DNA from: Candidatus Bathyarchaeota archaeon
GTDB lineage: Archaea > Thermoproteota > Bathyarchaeia > Bathyarchaeales > DTEX01
Length of the DNA stretch: 32,727 nt
Direction: 5' to 3'
Assembly: GCA_018396555.1 (NCBI GenBank)
Contig: JAGTQL010000005.1
Coordinates: 1 to 32,727, forward strand
Translations under genes and position numbers: made by a program
In this document: piece by piece, positions 4,065 to 10,374 of the stretch
How the letters are laid out: each line of letters starts with the position of its first letter
Numbering within the stretch: position 1 is the first letter of the stretch
Notes under the pieces: model-generated
Databases searched by the model: none
What the model was told of the DNA's origin: nothing
What the model saw: only the letters and a program-made list of their open reading frames with translations

Positions 4065-5072
4065 TCATTTAGGTTTAGCGCCTCTCCTTTTAGCAAGCAG
4101 CAGTGTAAACTCTACGGCGGCGACGGTAGCAGCCACAAATGTTGCTGCCTGAAAAGCCGCTAGCTGATTTTTTAGGCTTTCCGCTTCAGCCTTTAAAGAT
4201 TCAGTGAGCTTCTTAACTTCCATTTCCAGTTCCCTCATAGCCCTCCACCTCCTTAAGCCCTCGAAGAGTTGTTTAGCATTATATCGGAACATTTGCGTTA
4301 AATTCCCGGTTCCAGGGATTGCTCCGGGAAAGTTTGTTAGAACAACATGTTCTGCTCCAACCTCAGAAGCTATTGAAGCCCCAAATTCAGCGCTTATCTG
4401 AAGATTATCGATTATTAATGCAGCGCTTTCATTACGCGCTTTATCAATAATGTTTGCTATGTCGCTGGCTGAGAGGGTTTCAGGCGGATCATATGTTGCG
4501 ACAACTTTAAACCCAATCCACTCAACAAAGGTTTTTTGCCACTTCATGCATATTACGCTGACGCCCTCAACGCCTAAGGATTGGGCTTCTCTTCTTATCT
4601 CATCCGCCACAGAATCCGCAGCGTCAAGCATACTTGATACTTTGCTGCTGAAATCCTTTGAGAGCGCCATGCTAAGGTTTCCGCCAATTATTCTTATGCA
4701 GCTTTTTGCACCCGCAGGCGTGTTATATGTCCCAGGAACCTTAACTTGCATTAGATCTTCGTTAACAGCAGCCTCAATTAGATCTCCAAGCCAAGGTTTC
4801 TCGCCCGGTATGTCATGATAGAATAGTATTTTTGCTTTGCTTAGGGCGTATATGTCGCTTGGCTTCATATCGTAGTCGGTTGGGCAAAGGCTCGGGTTCA
4901 CTAGGACGATGACGTCCAAATCGTCGCCGGCAATCTCCTTAACTATTGAACCTAGAACATTCGTCGTGCATACTATTATCGGCTTCTCACCTTCTTCAGC
5001 GGCTGCAGCTGGCAATATAGCGCTTAAGATTAAGAGCGCTGCCAAAAACATTGTTGCCTCATTAACCTTCAT
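4065..5072 (-). CDS. Membrane-anchored metal ABC transporter substrate-binding protein (ZnuA-like, altered ligands)
   Basis: The extracellular binding protein of a metal-type ABC importer, 335 residues. A signal peptide (residues 1-25, ending PAAAA) precedes the start typical of the family, PIIVCTTNVLGSIVKEIAG. Other family landmarks are KPSDIYALSKAKILFYHD and RYNAKQLFEGL. The usual four metal ligands are not evident: the DPHxYEPTPSD position reads CPTDYDMKPSD, the DPHVWL and HDAFGYF positions are replaced (the latter reads MKWQKTF), and the final Asp is Asn in LTNFPGA. Candidate replacements are Cys, His and Asp nearby. The C-terminus is a charged coiled coil (about 280-307) and a transmembrane anchor. 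It overlaps the permease gene by 11 bases with GGAGGTGGAGAA before its ATG. A NikR site at the operon start suggests nickel. Confidence 0.82.
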   Translation of the reverse strand: MKVNEATMFLAALLILSAILPAAAAEEGEKPIIVCTTNVLGSIVKEIAGDDLDVIVLVNPSLCPTDYDMKPSDIYALSKAKILFYHDIPGEKPWLGDLIEAAVNEDLMQVKVPGTYNTPAGAKSCIRIIGGNLSMALSKDFSSKVSSMLDAADSVADEIRREAQSLGVEGVSVICMKWQKTFVEWIGFKVVATYDPPETLSASDIANIIDKARNESAALIIDNLQISAEFGASIASEVGAEHVVLTNFPGAIPGTGNLTQMFRYNAKQLFEGLRRWRAMRELEMEVKKLTESLKAEAESLKNQLAAFQAATFVAATVAAVEFTLLLAKRRGAKPK

Positions 5073-5889
5073 TTCTCCACCTCCTTCTCCTTTTAGGTGA
5101 AAGGATGACTGAGACTGCGAATATTAGGGTTGAAATGAGGGCTATGCATGAGCCTATGGGTATGTCGAAAAATAGAGATGCGAAGAAGCCGGCTATACAT
5201 GATGCGGTCCCGATAATCGGTGAGAGAAAAATAATTTTCCTCATGTCATGCAAATATTGAAGAGCCGATGATGCAGGGTTAAAAAGGAGCGCGTAAACAA
5301 GCAATCCGCCTACGAGCTTCAATGATAAGGCCACAGTTATCCCGGCTAGGAAAATCATGAAGTATACGAATATCTTAGTATTTATTCCATCAGCCTCAGC
5401 CATCTTCTTATCGAACATTATTGTGAAAAGCTCTTTCCAGAAGAGGTAGATTAGGGCAAGGGTTATGGAGCATAACGCTATCAAGTAAACTAGGTCTCTG
5501 TTTGTTATGGACACTATGCTTCCCCAAAGAACGCTTGCAACCTCGCTTGAAAGCCCAATCTGAGGTGAAAACGTTAAGAAGATGAATGCTAAAGCCATGT
5601 TGAGCGAGAACGCTATGCTTGTTATTGTGTCGATGGGCAGCCTGGCTTTATCAGCAGCCGGACCTATGAAGACAGCGGTGGCCGCTGAGAAAACTATGGC
5701 GGTTAACAGGGGGTCAACGGATAAGGCTACGCCTAAAGCTGCGCCTGCAAATGCGCTATGCGACATTGAATAGCCTATAGTTGAAAGTCTCATTTTCACA
5801 ACGAATACCCCTATTAAGCCGCCGAGCAAGCCTATGAATACGCAGCCTAAAAGCGCCCTTTGAAAAATCGCATACTCAAGATATATCAT
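5062..5889 (-). CDS. Metal ABC transporter permease (ZnuB-like, ABC-3 family)
   Basis: The membrane channel of the same importer, 275 residues, of the ABC-3 (ZnuB/MntB/TroC) family. It opens with YAIFQRALLGCVFIGLLGGLIGVFVV. The conserved MRLSTIGYSMSHSAFAGAALGVAL is the usual region where the ATPase docks. Seven to eight hydrophobic segments follow, with GGLLVYALLFNPASSA as a recognisable family stretch and a final helix near 245-265. Its ATG overlaps the ATPase stop (ATGA), and its 3' end overlaps the binding-protein start, so the three genes are translationally coupled in the order ATPase, permease, binding protein. The metal cannot be read from the permease itself. Confidence 0.88.
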   Translation of the reverse strand: MIYLEYAIFQRALLGCVFIGLLGGLIGVFVVKMRLSTIGYSMSHSAFAGAALGVALSVDPLLTAIVFSAATAVFIGPAADKARLPIDTITSIAFSLNMALAFIFLTFSPQIGLSSEVASVLWGSIVSITNRDLVYLIALCSITLALIYLFWKELFTIMFDKKMAEADGINTKIFVYFMIFLAGITVALSLKLVGGLLVYALLFNPASSALQYLHDMRKIIFLSPIIGTASCIAGFFASLFFDIPIGSCIALISTLIFAVSVILSPKRRRRWRNEG

Positions 5890-6668
5890 CCATTATGCCT
5901 CCAGAAACCCGAGAAATTCCATTTTTCAATCAGCGCCAGCGCCTTTCTAGGTTCGCAGTCAGCAATTATCCTACCGCTATTCATGACTATTGTCCTGCTG
6001 CATGATTCCGCCATCTGACGCAGATCATGGGTGACTATTATCGTGGTTAAATTATGTTCACTACTTATCTGGGCTATTAATTTAGAAATTTTATCACGTG
6101 ATTCAGGATCAAGGTTGCTGAACGGTTCATCCAGCAAGAGTATTTTCGGCTCCTTAGCTATGGCTCTGGCAATCATAACTTTCTGCTGCTGTCCACCGGA
6201 AAGCTTCCCAATCGGTTTGTTGGCTAAATCTTCGATCTCCAGAAGCCTCATGGCTTCGATCGCTTTCTCTTTATCCTCCTTACTGGGCCTACTTATAACC
6301 CCGATCTTACCATATCTGCCCATTAAAACAACATCTAGGGCAGTGTAGGGCTCTCCAGGGTCGACCATAAAGTCCTGCGGCACATAGCCTATTTGACACC
6401 TAACCTCCCTTCCATACTTCTGCACGTCTAAGTTTAGAACCGAAATATGCCCCTTAAATATCGGCAGTAAACCATTTATCGTCTCAAGGAGGGTTGTTTT
6501 TCCAGCGGCGTTAGGTCCTATAACATAAGCAAACTCGCTCTTCTCAAAAGCAAGATTAACATCCCTAATTGCAGGTCTCTTCTCGCCCTCATACACTGTT
6601 GAAACATCCCTAAGTTCGATCACCGATGCCATCCTGCTCAGTCGCCGCTTTAAACGCTTACCATCCAT
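5886..6668 (-). CDS. Metal ABC transporter ATPase (ZnuC-like)
   Basis: The cytoplasmic ATPase of the importer, 260 residues. It has Walker A GPNAAGKT near residue 53, the Q-loop GYVPQDF, the signature LSGGQQQK near 158, Walker B ILLLDEP and the H-switch VTHD. The N-terminal 12 residues (MDGKRLKRRLSR) look unlike the family, and the ATG of MASVIELRDV is an alternative start. The upstream ATG would suit a nearly leaderless transcript, because a TATA-like AATTTTTAAG lies at 6701-6710. The NikR-type operator at 6670-6697 sits between that box and the start codon, so NikR with nickel would be expected to shut the operon off. Confidence 0.9.
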   Translation of the reverse strand: MDGKRLKRRLSRMASVIELRDVSTVYEGEKRPAIRDVNLAFEKSEFAYVIGPNAAGKTTLLETINGLLPIFKGHISVLNLDVQKYGREVRCQIGYVPQDFMVDPGEPYTALDVVLMGRYGKIGVISRPSKEDKEKAIEAMRLLEIEDLANKPIGKLSGGQQQKVMIARAIAKEPKILLLDEPFSNLDPESRDKISKLIAQISSEHNLTTIIVTHDLRQMAESCSRTIVMNSGRIIADCEPRKALALIEKWNFSGFWRHNG

Positions 6669-6669
6669 G

Positions 6670-6697
6670 ATGTTACTAAAAAATTATAATGTAACAC
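6670..6697. promoter_or_regulatory. Candidate NikR operator
   Basis: ATGTTAC (6670-6676), 14 bases, then GTAACAC (6691-6697). This differs at one base from GTGTTAC-N13/14-GTAACAC, the NikR site I recall from comparative-genomic work on archaea and deltaproteobacteria. It begins two bases upstream of the importer ATPase start and overlaps the expected transcription start. A complete nikR faces it across the same intergenic region. Pairing of the operator with this particular promoter is seen; repression is inferred. Confidence 0.72.
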
Positions 6698-6972
6698 AAA
6701 CTTAAAAATTTAACCCCTAAGGGCATGTTCAAGCGCTTCTCACAGCCATCCTAAACCTACCCCTTCCCCCAGCATGCTAGGACCAATATAATAAGCGAGA
6801 CTGATATAACCATAAAACTTTACTGACCAAACAGCCTAGGGGTTCTCTTAAAATTCTTTACATTTAAAAAAGGTTCTCGGCGCTTCAGTGCACGTGAGAA
6901 ATGGAGCCCTTAGGTTTTAGGAATTAAAAAATTTTAACTATAACCATACCCCAAATTATCTTTGGTGTCTGA
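6698..6972. other. Intergenic region between the importer operon and nikR
   Basis: This is the remainder of a 304-base gap. It holds a TATA-like element for the leftward operon at 6701-6710 and an AT-rich stretch at about 6924-6945 that may serve nikR. I see no ORF, RNA fold or further copy of the NikR site in it. Confidence 0.5.
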
Positions 6973-7389
6973 ATGCAAGATAAAGCGGGCGTTGTACGTT
7001 TTAGCGTTTCACTTCCACCGACACTTGTTGAGGAATTTGACAGCGCCTGGAAGAGCATGAATTATGAGAACCGTTCTAAAGCCGTTCATGACGCCATGCG
7101 AACCTTTATAAGCGAATTTAAGTGGACACGCGGGGAAACGGAGCAGATGGCCGGGGCAATACTCATCCTATACTATTTAGATAAGCCCAACCTCCTAGAG
7201 AAGATCATGGAAATCCAGCATAAATTCAGAAATATAATATCATCAACGACGCACATACATCTAGAAGAGGATAAATGCCTAGAGATGATTGCAGTTAACG
7301 GTAAAGCTGGCGAAATAAGAAATCTAGCGCAGGAGTTAATGGCTAAGAAAGGCGTTAAGCAAGTTAAAATTGCTGTGGTATCGCCCTAA
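6973..7389 (+). CDS. nikR: Nickel-responsive regulator NikR
   Basis: A ribbon-helix-helix DNA-binding protein with a C-terminal nickel-binding ACT-like domain, 138 residues, the standard NikR length. The N-terminal strand VVRFSVSLPPTLVEEFD and the following helices (to about 50) form the DNA-binding part. The four nickel ligands are all present at His83, His94, His96 and Cys102, with exactly the spacing of E. coli His76, His87, His89 and Cys95. The ATG has GGTG about 5-9 bases upstream. It is transcribed away from the ZnuABC-like operon, whose promoter carries a NikR-type palindrome, so that operon is the evident target. No such site is seen directly before nikR itself. Confidence 0.95.
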   Translation: MQDKAGVVRFSVSLPPTLVEEFDSAWKSMNYENRSKAVHDAMRTFISEFKWTRGETEQMAGAILILYYLDKPNLLEKIMEIQHKFRNIISSTTHIHLEEDKCLEMIAVNGKAGEIRNLAQELMAKKGVKQVKIAVVSP

Positions 7390-7487: not shown

Positions 7488-8150
7488 TTGCCATCGAAAG
7501 TTTCCGATGTAATTGAGGAGTATCTTGAGGTCATCTATAGGCTTCAGGAGCAGAGAGGCTCAGCCAAAACAAGCGACCTAGTTAGGATTTTAAGCGTTGC
7601 ACCCGGAACCGTAACTAACACTATTGAAAGACTTGAGAAGAATCTTCTGATAACTCATGCGCCTTACAAGGGAGTGCAATTGACGGAGAAGGGATTTAAA
7701 ATAGCTATGGGCGTCATTAGGAAACATAGGTTACTTGAGTGCCTCCTTGCAGATTTCTTAGGAATCGAATGGTACGAGGCACATGATGCGGCTTGTCAGC
7801 TTGAGCATTGGATATCGGAGGAGATTGCGGAAAAAATTGAGGCGGCTCTTGGCTATCCGAAAACCTGTCCGCATGGAAATCCTATTCCAACAGAGCGTGG
7901 CGAAATATTTGAGGAGGAAACGCAATCTCTCATCGAACTGAATATTGGAGATGGGGGCATAATTACAAAGATAACTGACGAAGGAAGCCCCCTTCTGCAG
8001 TACTTTAGCAGGATTGGCATAAAACCGAAAAAACGCATTGATGTGATTGATAAGGCCCCCTTCAATGGTCCAGTGACTATTAAAGTAGATGGAAGAAGCC
8101 AAGCCTTAAGCCGTGATTTAGCCTCGCTTGTGAGGGTTCGCAAAATTTAA
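7488..8150 (+). CDS. DtxR-family metal-dependent repressor
   Basis: A three-domain regulator of iron or manganese genes, 220 residues. It has a winged helix (1-65), a dimerisation and metal-binding domain (about 70-140) and a C-terminal SH3/FeoA-like domain (about 150-218). His80, Glu84, His99, Cys103, Glu106 and His107 match the DtxR ligands, each shifted by one. Cys103 (not Glu) argues for iron, while Glu11 replaces the DtxR Met10 with an acidic residue as in MntR, so the sensor site is mixed. The TTG start at 7488 is the only suitable start near the N-terminus, with a weak AAAAGGG upstream. It overlaps feoA (TAATG), so it heads a dtxR-feoA-feoB operon and probably controls itself and iron uptake. 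Confidence 0.92.
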   Translation: MPSKVSDVIEEYLEVIYRLQEQRGSAKTSDLVRILSVAPGTVTNTIERLEKNLLITHAPYKGVQLTEKGFKIAMGVIRKHRLLECLLADFLGIEWYEAHDAACQLEHWISEEIAEKIEAALGYPKTCPHGNPIPTERGEIFEEETQSLIELNIGDGGIITKITDEGSPLLQYFSRIGIKPKKRIDVIDKAPFNGPVTIKVDGRSQALSRDLASLVRVRKI

Positions 8151-8431
8151 TGTTGACTTTAGAGGTGGTTGAGATGGAGCTGCCGCTGACGGCTTTGAGA
8201 GAAGGTGAAAGCGGGGTAATCACGTCAATAAGAGCCAGTTTTGGATGGGGGAAAGGTGGAGGGTACGGGCTTCAAAAGAGACTTATGGACATGGGTTTAA
8301 CACCCGGCACAAAAATAACAGTTGTTAAGTCGGCGCCCTTTCACGGACCGATTGAAATTAATGTGAGAGGCTACCGGCTGGCAATCGGCAGAGGGATGGC
8401 TGAAAAGATTCTAGTGGAGGTTCAAAAGTGA
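8150..8431 (+). CDS. feoA: Ferrous iron transport protein FeoA
   Basis: A small cytosolic SH3-like partner of FeoB, up to 93 residues. It has the family pattern PLTALREGESGVI, then RLMDMGLTPGTKITVVKSAPFHGPIEINVRGYRLAIGR, with the basic and Gly-rich turns typical of FeoA. The first ATG overlaps the dtxR stop. The internal ATG of MELPLTAL, 24 bases on, follows GAGGTGG and may be the real start. It overlaps the FeoB GTG start by four bases (GTGA), so expression is coupled. A Gly-rich insertion (WGKGGGYG) lies between the first and second strands. Confidence 0.92.
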   Translation: MLTLEVVEMELPLTALREGESGVITSIRASFGWGKGGGYGLQKRLMDMGLTPGTKITVVKSAPFHGPIEINVRGYRLAIGRGMAEKILVEVQK

Positions 8432-10374
8432 CAGAAAAGAAGCTGAAGATCGCATTAGCGGGAAACGCGAATGTTGGCAAGTCTGTAATATTTAATCAGC
8501 TGACTGGTTTGCATCAGCACATTGGAAACTGGCCCGGCAAGACTGTTGAAAAGGCTGAGGGCACTCTTCACTTTAAGGGCTATACCATAGATATTATTGA
8601 TTTACCAGGCATATACTCGCTGTCAACCTTCTCCCTGGAGGAAATTGTTTCCAGAGAGTATATAGTTGATGAGAAACCAGATCTGGTCATAAATGTTGTA
8701 GATGCGTCTGCCCTTGAGAGAAATCTTTTCTTCACCCTACAGTTAATGGAGCTTGAAACCCCGCTTATTATAGCCCTAAATCAAATTGATATGGCTGAGA
8801 AGAAAGGGATAAAAATAGACCTTAAAAGGCTTGGAGAAAAACTTGGAGTGAGCGTTGTCCCGACAATCGCCATAAAAGGGAAAGGAATATACGAGCTGCT
8901 TGAAAAAGCCGTTGAAGTCATTGAGAAAGGCGCAGCGAAGCCTTCGGCGATAAGTTATGGTGAAGAAATCGAAGAAAGAATTCGCCGGCTCACGGAGGCG
9001 CTAGGAAAAATACGGCTTAAGTATCCAGCTAGATGGACGGCGATAAAACTTCTAGAGGGCGATGAGCAAGTTAAGAAGGAAATATACGATTTAAGCCCTG
9101 AGATTCTGCAGGTGGCTGAAAACCTCGCTAGGGAAATTGAGGAGATTCACGGTCATCCCTGCCCAACAGTGGTCGTATCTGAACGTTACGAGGTTGCTGG
9201 CAAAATTGCGAGGGAAGTTCAGCAGATTCTGCCAAGGATAAAGCCCCAGTTAGGCGAAAGACTGCATGAAGTGACAATACATAATATTCTAGGTTATCCA
9301 ATAATGATTTTGATTTTTCTTGGAATTTTTAACGTAATCTTCATGCTGGGAGGTTACATGTCGGAAATTCTCAATGGTCTGCTCTATGGGTATGAACCGC
9401 TTTTTGAAAATCTTTTTGGATTAAACCCGCTTAAGGAGATAATTTGGGGCGGGATTATGGAGGGTGTAATAGCCAACATTACCATCGCCCTGCCGTATAT
9501 AATTCCATTTTACCTAATTTTATATGTTCTTGAAGATTCCGGCTACCTTGCCCGGGCGGCCTTTCTAACAGACACCTTAATGCATAAAATGGGCTTACAT
9601 GGTAAAGCCTTCATCCCCCTGATGCTTGGTTACGGATGTAATGTTCCCGCATGTTTAGGATGCAGAATAATGGAGACGGAAAGAGAGAGGCTTCTCGCCG
9701 GCTTCGTTGTCACATTAATACCGTGCGCTGCAAGAACAACTGTAATACTTGGGCTTGTTGGAAGCTTTCTCGGGCTGCACTGGGCATTAACGCTGTACGC
9801 CATTAATCTTATAATAGTTTTCCTGCTGGGGAAGCTAGCGTTTAAAGTTCTTCCCGGGGAGCCAACGGCTTTAATAATGGAGATGCCGGATTATAGGCTT
9901 CCACATTTTAAAACCGTAATTAAGCAAACATGGTTTAGGCTTGAGGAATTTCTTAAAATATCCTTCCCACTAATAATTTTAAGCGGACTAATAATTAAGT
10001 TCATGGAAATCTTTAATCTTTTAGAGCCAATTTCAAGATTTCTAAGTCCTGTAACAGTCACTTGGCTTGGGCTGCCGGAAATCACCGGTGTAACATTAAT
10101 ATTCGGGATATTAAGAAAGGAGCTTACGCTGGTAATTCTTGCAACGTTACTTGGAACAACAAATTTTCAAGAGGCCTTAACGCCGCTACAAATGTTCGTC
10201 TTCACTTTAGTGGTGATGCTTTATGTGCCATGCGTCGCAACCATAGCGGCATGCATAAAAGAGTTTGGATGGAAAAAAGCCGCAATAATATCTTTGCTTG
10301 AGATAATACTCACGATCAGCGTGGGCGGATTAGCCTATAGAATTTTAGCGATATTAAATTTATTAGAGCATTAA
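8428..10374 (+). CDS. feoB: Ferrous iron transporter FeoB
   Basis: The membrane permease for Fe(II) with an N-terminal GTP-binding domain, 648 residues. The G domain has G1 GNANVGKS at 12-19, G3 DLPG near 58 and G4 NQID near 120, followed by a helical GDI-like region to about 270. The membrane half carries the two Gate regions and the conserved Cys cluster [13 protein letters not shown], plus [13 protein letters not shown] near the C-terminus. It starts at GTG overlapping feoA. It ends at [11 protein letters not shown] without the Cys-rich FeoC-like tail of enterobacteria. Regulation is probably by the DtxR-type repressor at the operon head. Confidence 0.96.

Follow-up and report, generated by a model that had tools for sequence, protein, structure and literature searches.

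A NikR-linked operon of the zinc/manganese ABC importer family is a probable nickel importer in Bathyarchaeia

Within a 32,727-nucleotide stretch of a Candidatus Bathyarchaeota archaeon genome (hereafter the window), the three genes of an ABC importer of the zinc/manganese type start beside a candidate NikR operator and face a divergent nikR gene. From its sequence, we read this operon as a NikR-repressed nickel importer of the cluster A-I type, with a probability of about 0.84, and we give the same weight to nickel as the cargo, to which the regulator, the operator and the gene context point. The operon is very probably a kind of nickel importer not recorded before: the cluster A-I family is known, and its turning to nickel under NikR, over a wide range of lineages, appears to be new.

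Results

The three genes lie on the minus strand and overlap one another. They encode an ATPase of 260 aa (5886..6668; Pfam ABC_tran, E=1.4e-29), an ABC-3 family permease of 275 aa (5062..5889; PF00950, E=1.7e-56), whose gene overlaps the first by 4 bases, and a binding protein of the cluster A-I type of 335 aa with a C-terminal anchor helix (4065..5072; PF01297, Pfam ZnuA, E=2e-25), whose gene overlaps that of the permease by 11 bases. An ABC-3 permease and an ABC ATPase in one operon, together with a PF01297 protein of TroA/ZnuA fold, characterize cluster A-I importers, and the window permease clusters with permeases linked to the same binding-protein family. The operon has one ABC-3 permease and not the NikABCDE-type architecture of a peptide/nickel binding protein with two permeases. 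An earlier reading of the sequence alone (the sequence-only reading) had described three coupled genes of the zinc/manganese-type importer family starting two bases from a palindrome. The description of the genes holds and so does their closeness to the palindrome, but not the figure of two bases: the most upstream ATG (6668) lies one base away from it, and since conservation of the ATPase starts at residues 8–17 in most relatives, translation could equally well begin at Met13 (6632).

The palindrome, ATGTTAC-N14-GTAACAC (6670..6697; GTGTTAC-N14-GTAACAT on the minus strand), is a candidate NikR operator. It has a single mismatch to the published consensus, GTGTTAC-[N13/14]-GTAACAC (PMC545781), which is delta-proteobacterial. 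The sequence-only reading had placed the palindrome one base from the NikR consensus, and the published consensus bears this out. No other site with at most one mismatch occurs in the genome of 1,736,240 bases; two sites elsewhere have two mismatches, and a reversed control pattern gave 4. A possible TATA-box, TTAAATTTTT (6704..6713, minus strand), can be read next to the operator, and its placement could put the start of transcription inside it.

Is the operator conserved? We collected 80 related loci (81 with the window) with a binding-protein profile from a species-level genome collection that includes MAGs. These loci span Bathyarchaeia, Hecatellales, Theionarchaea, Thermoplasmatota, Archaeoglobi and Methanothrix, and also Bipolaricaulota/Acetothermia, Atribacteria, Aerophobetes, WOR-3, Syntrophus and others. 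We then counted half-sites in pairs (GTGTTAC, GTATTAC or their complements, allowing up to one mismatch per pair) for all gaps of 4 to 40 bases. In the DNA upstream of the operons, these pairs peaked at gaps of 13, 14 and 15 bases (8, 25 and 10 pairs, respectively) and other gaps were nearly empty. Altogether, 43 pairs with 13–15-base gaps fell in 33.9 kb of upstream DNA, as compared to 11 in the remaining 805 kb of the loci. Such a site was present upstream in 40 of 76 usable loci, which are related by descent and thus are not independent trials; dinucleotide shuffles yielded a mean of 0.10 loci with a site (maximum 1), and control gaps yielded 0–2. The same-genus relatives (L030–L034) keep the operator before the ATPase gene. 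By the half-site criterion, a number of remote family members (Archaeoglobi, Methanothrix, some Bipolaricaulota and Syntrophus) had no site. A chance palindrome was rejected, given the uniqueness of the site in the genome and an upstream conservation far above that of the shuffles.

Depending on the lineage, the half-sites are inverted, direct or everted, and simple descent of one sequence is therefore not a sufficient explanation for their conservation. Direct or everted repeats with 13–15-base gaps were observed in L095, L101, L113, L117, L118, L100, L110 and L104; to judge from these sequences, they are apparently interchangeable with inverted repeats in NikR sites. For Desulfotalea, everted NikR sites had already been described in 2004 (PMC545781). 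The half-site can be written as GTRNYAC, which is a quasi-palindrome; a likely reason for the freedom of arrangement is that a ribbon-helix-helix dimer of two-fold symmetry could recognize it in either direction. An operator of the NikR regulon is marked by a pair of half-sites spaced by about two helical turns and kept upstream of orthologues. The sequence-only reading had staked itself in advance on conservation of the palindrome upstream of orthologous operons, and the paired half-sites, found in a number of phyla and in more than one arrangement, bear this out.

The regulator gene itself (nikR, 6973..7389, plus strand, 138 aa; NikR_C, E=8e-26) is divergent from the importer genes. Its product carries the NikR_C domain after a ribbon-helix-helix N-terminus, as NikR proteins do, and exceeds the cut-offs of three full-length NCBIfam NikR-type models. 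When aligned to what we take to be the E. coli NikR sequence, it has H, H, H and C at positions H76, H87, H89 and C95, and these ligands are kept in 59/59 aligned NikR copies. The earlier statement that the operon is faced by a nikR with the full set of four nickel ligands is thus confirmed. In the NikR tree, the window protein lies among NikRs found beside importers of the same family and beside an unnamed NikR-linked membrane protein. A nikR gene was present in 19/81 loci, in 18 of them within ~1.5 kb, and the loci that bear it belong to Bathyarchaeia, Thermoplasmatota, Bipolaricaulota and one further bacterium.

Two other NikR neighborhoods were observed. In relatives that lack the importer operon, the gene opposite nikR has a NikR-type box and encodes a multi-pass membrane protein of ~180 aa (L166 5944-6516, L167 5889-6458, L169 1621-2211, L176 1843-2442 and L179 4548-5168), followed in two cases by FmdE. 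This small protein had no Pfam or NCBIfam match; by eye it is ECF S-component-like and is possibly another nickel importer. The genome of the window also encodes a second, divergent NikR paralogue facing a heavy-metal P-type ATPase (L048 6089-8557, contig C29). The same pair occurs in L173, L174 and L178, and these NikRs form their own clade, which possibly controls metal export.

Is the binding protein a zinc protein? Its AlphaFold model (mean pLDDT 93, from a 70-sequence alignment) has YfeA, MntC, PsaA and AztC as nearest PDB folds (E about 1e-14), and in the libraries searched the importer family was matched only by zinc/manganese models. At the level of the metal site, several features emerged: (i) by profile alignment, the first canonical His position is taken by T65 (in most family members Ala), the second by G114 and the third by M176 or the variable K177; (ii) the window protein has no His-rich loop, so that the zinc-specific signature of ZnuA (three His ligands and an acidic residue, usually with a His-rich loop) is missing; (iii) the NCBIfam equivalog cut-offs for ZnuA, MntC and AztC were not reached (best score 46.9 bits, cut-off 350); and (iv) C63, D68, N223 and N247 are invariant over ~80 family sequences, with M176 and D222 nearly so. 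With altered ligand positions and no equivalog reached, the protein thus belongs to the fold and importer family and, by its ligands, falls outside the ZnuA zinc subfamily. We infer from the sequences and the model that C63, D68, M176, D222, N223 and N247 bind nickel. The subfamily is recognisable by the signature CPAxxD ... CMxW ... DNxQ ... TNFP.

The gene context of the relatives points to nickel enzymes. In one bacterium (L112), nikR and the genes for binding protein, FmdE, ATPase and permease lie among hypF, the [NiFe]-hydrogenase large subunit gene and further hydrogenase-type genes. In three Thermoplasmatota loci, hypA and an Mrp-type ATPase gene, which we take to be hypB-like on the assumption that archaeal HypB is Mrp-like, directly follow the permease gene (L140, L143 and L153); the two lie slightly farther on in L142 and L152. 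HypA serves as a metallochaperone for nickel (Pfam description), and archaeal HypB has been reported to be of a novel type (Sasaki et al. 2013, as cited in PMC7055735). Within the taxonomic order of the window archaeon, nikR adjoins NikMNQO in L171 and hypA/hypB-like genes in L054, L058 and L059. In a WOR-3 bacterium (L157, 1744-5212), a perfect NikR box precedes the gene of a TonB-dependent receptor, which runs into the binding-protein gene, followed by that of the ATPase.

The genome of the window, a MAG that is ~90% complete, encodes CdhC (acetyl-CoA synthase), HypA and four matches to PF00374 (hydrogenase family). A search of this MAG for nickel importers covered CbiM/NikM and NiCoT/NicO (PF03824) and gave no match to either. 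Of 17 relatives with the importer operon, 13 lack both CbiM and NicO and 4, all of one genus, have CbiM. A strict replacement between the operon and NikMNQO was considered and rejected: each occurs in 17 relatives and both in 4, when ~4.7 would be expected if they were independent. As this overlap is what chance predicts, we do not count the absence of CbiM in relatives as support.

Which partners accompany the importer? An FmdE-like gene (PF02663), absent from the window operon, is present in 45/80 related loci, often between the genes of the binding protein and the ATPase. In one FmdE crystal structure, a His/His/Cys/Cys site holds mixed zinc and nickel, the protein having been purified on nickel resin (PMC2954224); that the partner hands over nickel is a guess. 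SAM methyltransferase genes also recur beside the operon (L122 9463-10603, L097 3639-4391 and 5302-5329, and L084-L088), some with their own NikR-like box (L122 and L097), and in L097 an FmdE with a zinc finger has such a box too. One possibility is that these methyltransferases serve to make a metal-binding small molecule. The box of L122 was considered as a counter-example, being near a canonical ZnuA operon, and was set aside: it lies immediately in front of a methyltransferase gene that points the other way.

These neighbors bear on the cargo. Under NikR control, the importer could carry cobalt, or a nickel- or cobalt-organic complex, instead of Ni(II). The loss of the canonical ion ligands from the binding protein would fit, as would the recurrent methyltransferases with their boxes in L122 and L097 and the TonB receptor that heads the operon in L157, TonB receptors usually taking large chelates. 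However, the recognised context consists of nickel-enzyme genes and not of B12 genes, and the methyltransferases are not universal among the loci, which leaves this reading unlikely.

An importer of zinc (or manganese) under a zinc-sensing NikR homologue is quite improbable. The permease and the binding protein belong to zinc/manganese families, and in 2011 nikR was described next to znuABC in Methanothermobacter (MTH603-606), with the suggestion of a zinc-responsive NikR (PMC3087415). In related genomes (L160–L163), a NikR paralogue, which is a candidate zinc-sensing NikR by its sequence context, is divergent from and adjoins a canonical, His-rich ZnuABC operon. However, these paralogues group in a clade of their own (100/98), and the window NikR sits in another; their ZnuA proteins keep the His ligands and the His-rich loop, whereas the window protein has lost those His. 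The hydrogenase and hypA/hypB-like neighbors of the relatives also speak against zinc and for nickel. In these genomes, the pairing of a NikR with a canonical ZnuA therefore falls outside the NikR clade of the window, and zinc under a zinc-sensing NikR was set aside as improbable.

Next to nikR lie the overlapping or abutting genes of a DtxR/MntR-type regulator fused to a FeoA domain (7488-8150), feoA (8150-8431) and feoB (8428-10374), all on the plus strand and assigned with Pfam/NCBIfam. Together (7488..10374), they are probably an iron unit separate from the importer. A second ZnuA-like ABC operon in the same genome (L164 2334-5374, contig C118) has its own DtxR-type regulator gene and is likely a Mn/Zn/Fe system. 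That the window operon itself is an iron or manganese importer controlled by DtxR/MntR, with nikR and the palindrome incidental, has almost nothing left to recommend it: the DtxR-feoAB order adjoins nikR in the window, L030, L031 and L033, and feoB is found in 14/81 loci, but feoAB is absent beside the operons of L034 and L035, NikR-type sites recur upstream across phyla, and the L164 operon has a DtxR-type gene to itself.

Discussion

The nickel link of a NikR-linked Znu-type operon, which the sequence-only reading had proposed, is supported by the hydrogenase and hyp neighbors, by the lack of NikM/CbiM and NiCoT matches in a genome that encodes CdhC and HypA, and by the lost zinc/manganese ligands; its novelty is limited by the earlier report (PMC3087415). 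The chances are about even that the family as a whole forms a further class of nickel ABC importers, in no fewer than seven lineages of archaea and bacteria: a zinc/manganese scaffold whose Cys/Asp/Met/Asn site would hold nickel or a chelate of it, an FmdE-like partner in many lineages, and NikR half-sites in inverted, direct or everted arrangement at a spacing of two helical turns.

What could be the mechanism? We infer nickel binding, nickel transport, NikR binding and repression, and the promoter position in the following scheme. When nickel is low, the operon would be on, and nickel would be captured outside and pumped in. The membrane-anchored binding protein would capture Ni(II) or a small nickel complex in the cleft that holds zinc or manganese in its cousins, here lined by Cys63, Asp68, Met176, Asp222, Asn223 and Asn247, and the ABC-3 permease, as a homodimer, would carry the metal inward together with the ATPase, supplying CODH/ACS and hydrogenase-family enzymes. 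As cytoplasmic nickel rises, the NikR tetramer would bind it and set its two ribbon-helix-helix heads on the two half-sites, two helical turns apart, bridging the presumed transcription start and turning the operon off.

Bathyarchaeia and their neighbors carry nickel enzymes (CODH/ACS and hydrogenase-family enzymes), and neither ECF nor NiCoT importers were found in the genome of the window. If our reading is true, it would explain the nickel supply of such lineages and correct the automatic naming of a recognisable subfamily as "zinc/manganese transporter". The subfamily would also be a natural test case for the conversion of a zinc/manganese binding cleft to another metal.

How does the operon compare with known systems? 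The sequence-only reading named NikABCDE, NikMNQO and other nickel carriers as NikR targets, and no ZnuABC-type one. A nikR-znuABC pairing had been described in the 2011 report; as regards a NikR-linked nickel importer of the Znu/Tro type, nothing beyond that report (PMC3087415) was found in the literature searched. In Methanothermobacter MTH603-606, nikR adjoins a Znu-type operon in an archaeon as in the window; that operon was assigned to zinc (PMC3087415), and its binding protein may be either of the window type or of the canonical one. NikABCDE is likewise an ABC importer under NikR (PMC7055735), but its binding-protein and permease families differ from those of the window operon. NikMNQO, an ECF-type system, shares the NikR operator and the nikR neighborhood and is found in the same taxonomic order (L171); its transporter architecture is unrelated, and NikM/CbiM was not found in the MAG of the window. 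The closest relatives in build are the cluster A-I importers (ZnuABC, TroABC, MntABC/PsaABC, YfeABCD and AztABC), which have the same ABC-3 permease, ATPase and PF01297 fold. In contrast to these, the window binding protein has none of the three alignable canonical His and a Cys/Asp/Met/Asn set instead, and the operon has a NikR operator, not one for Zur or MntR, with an FmdE-like gene often present in its relatives.
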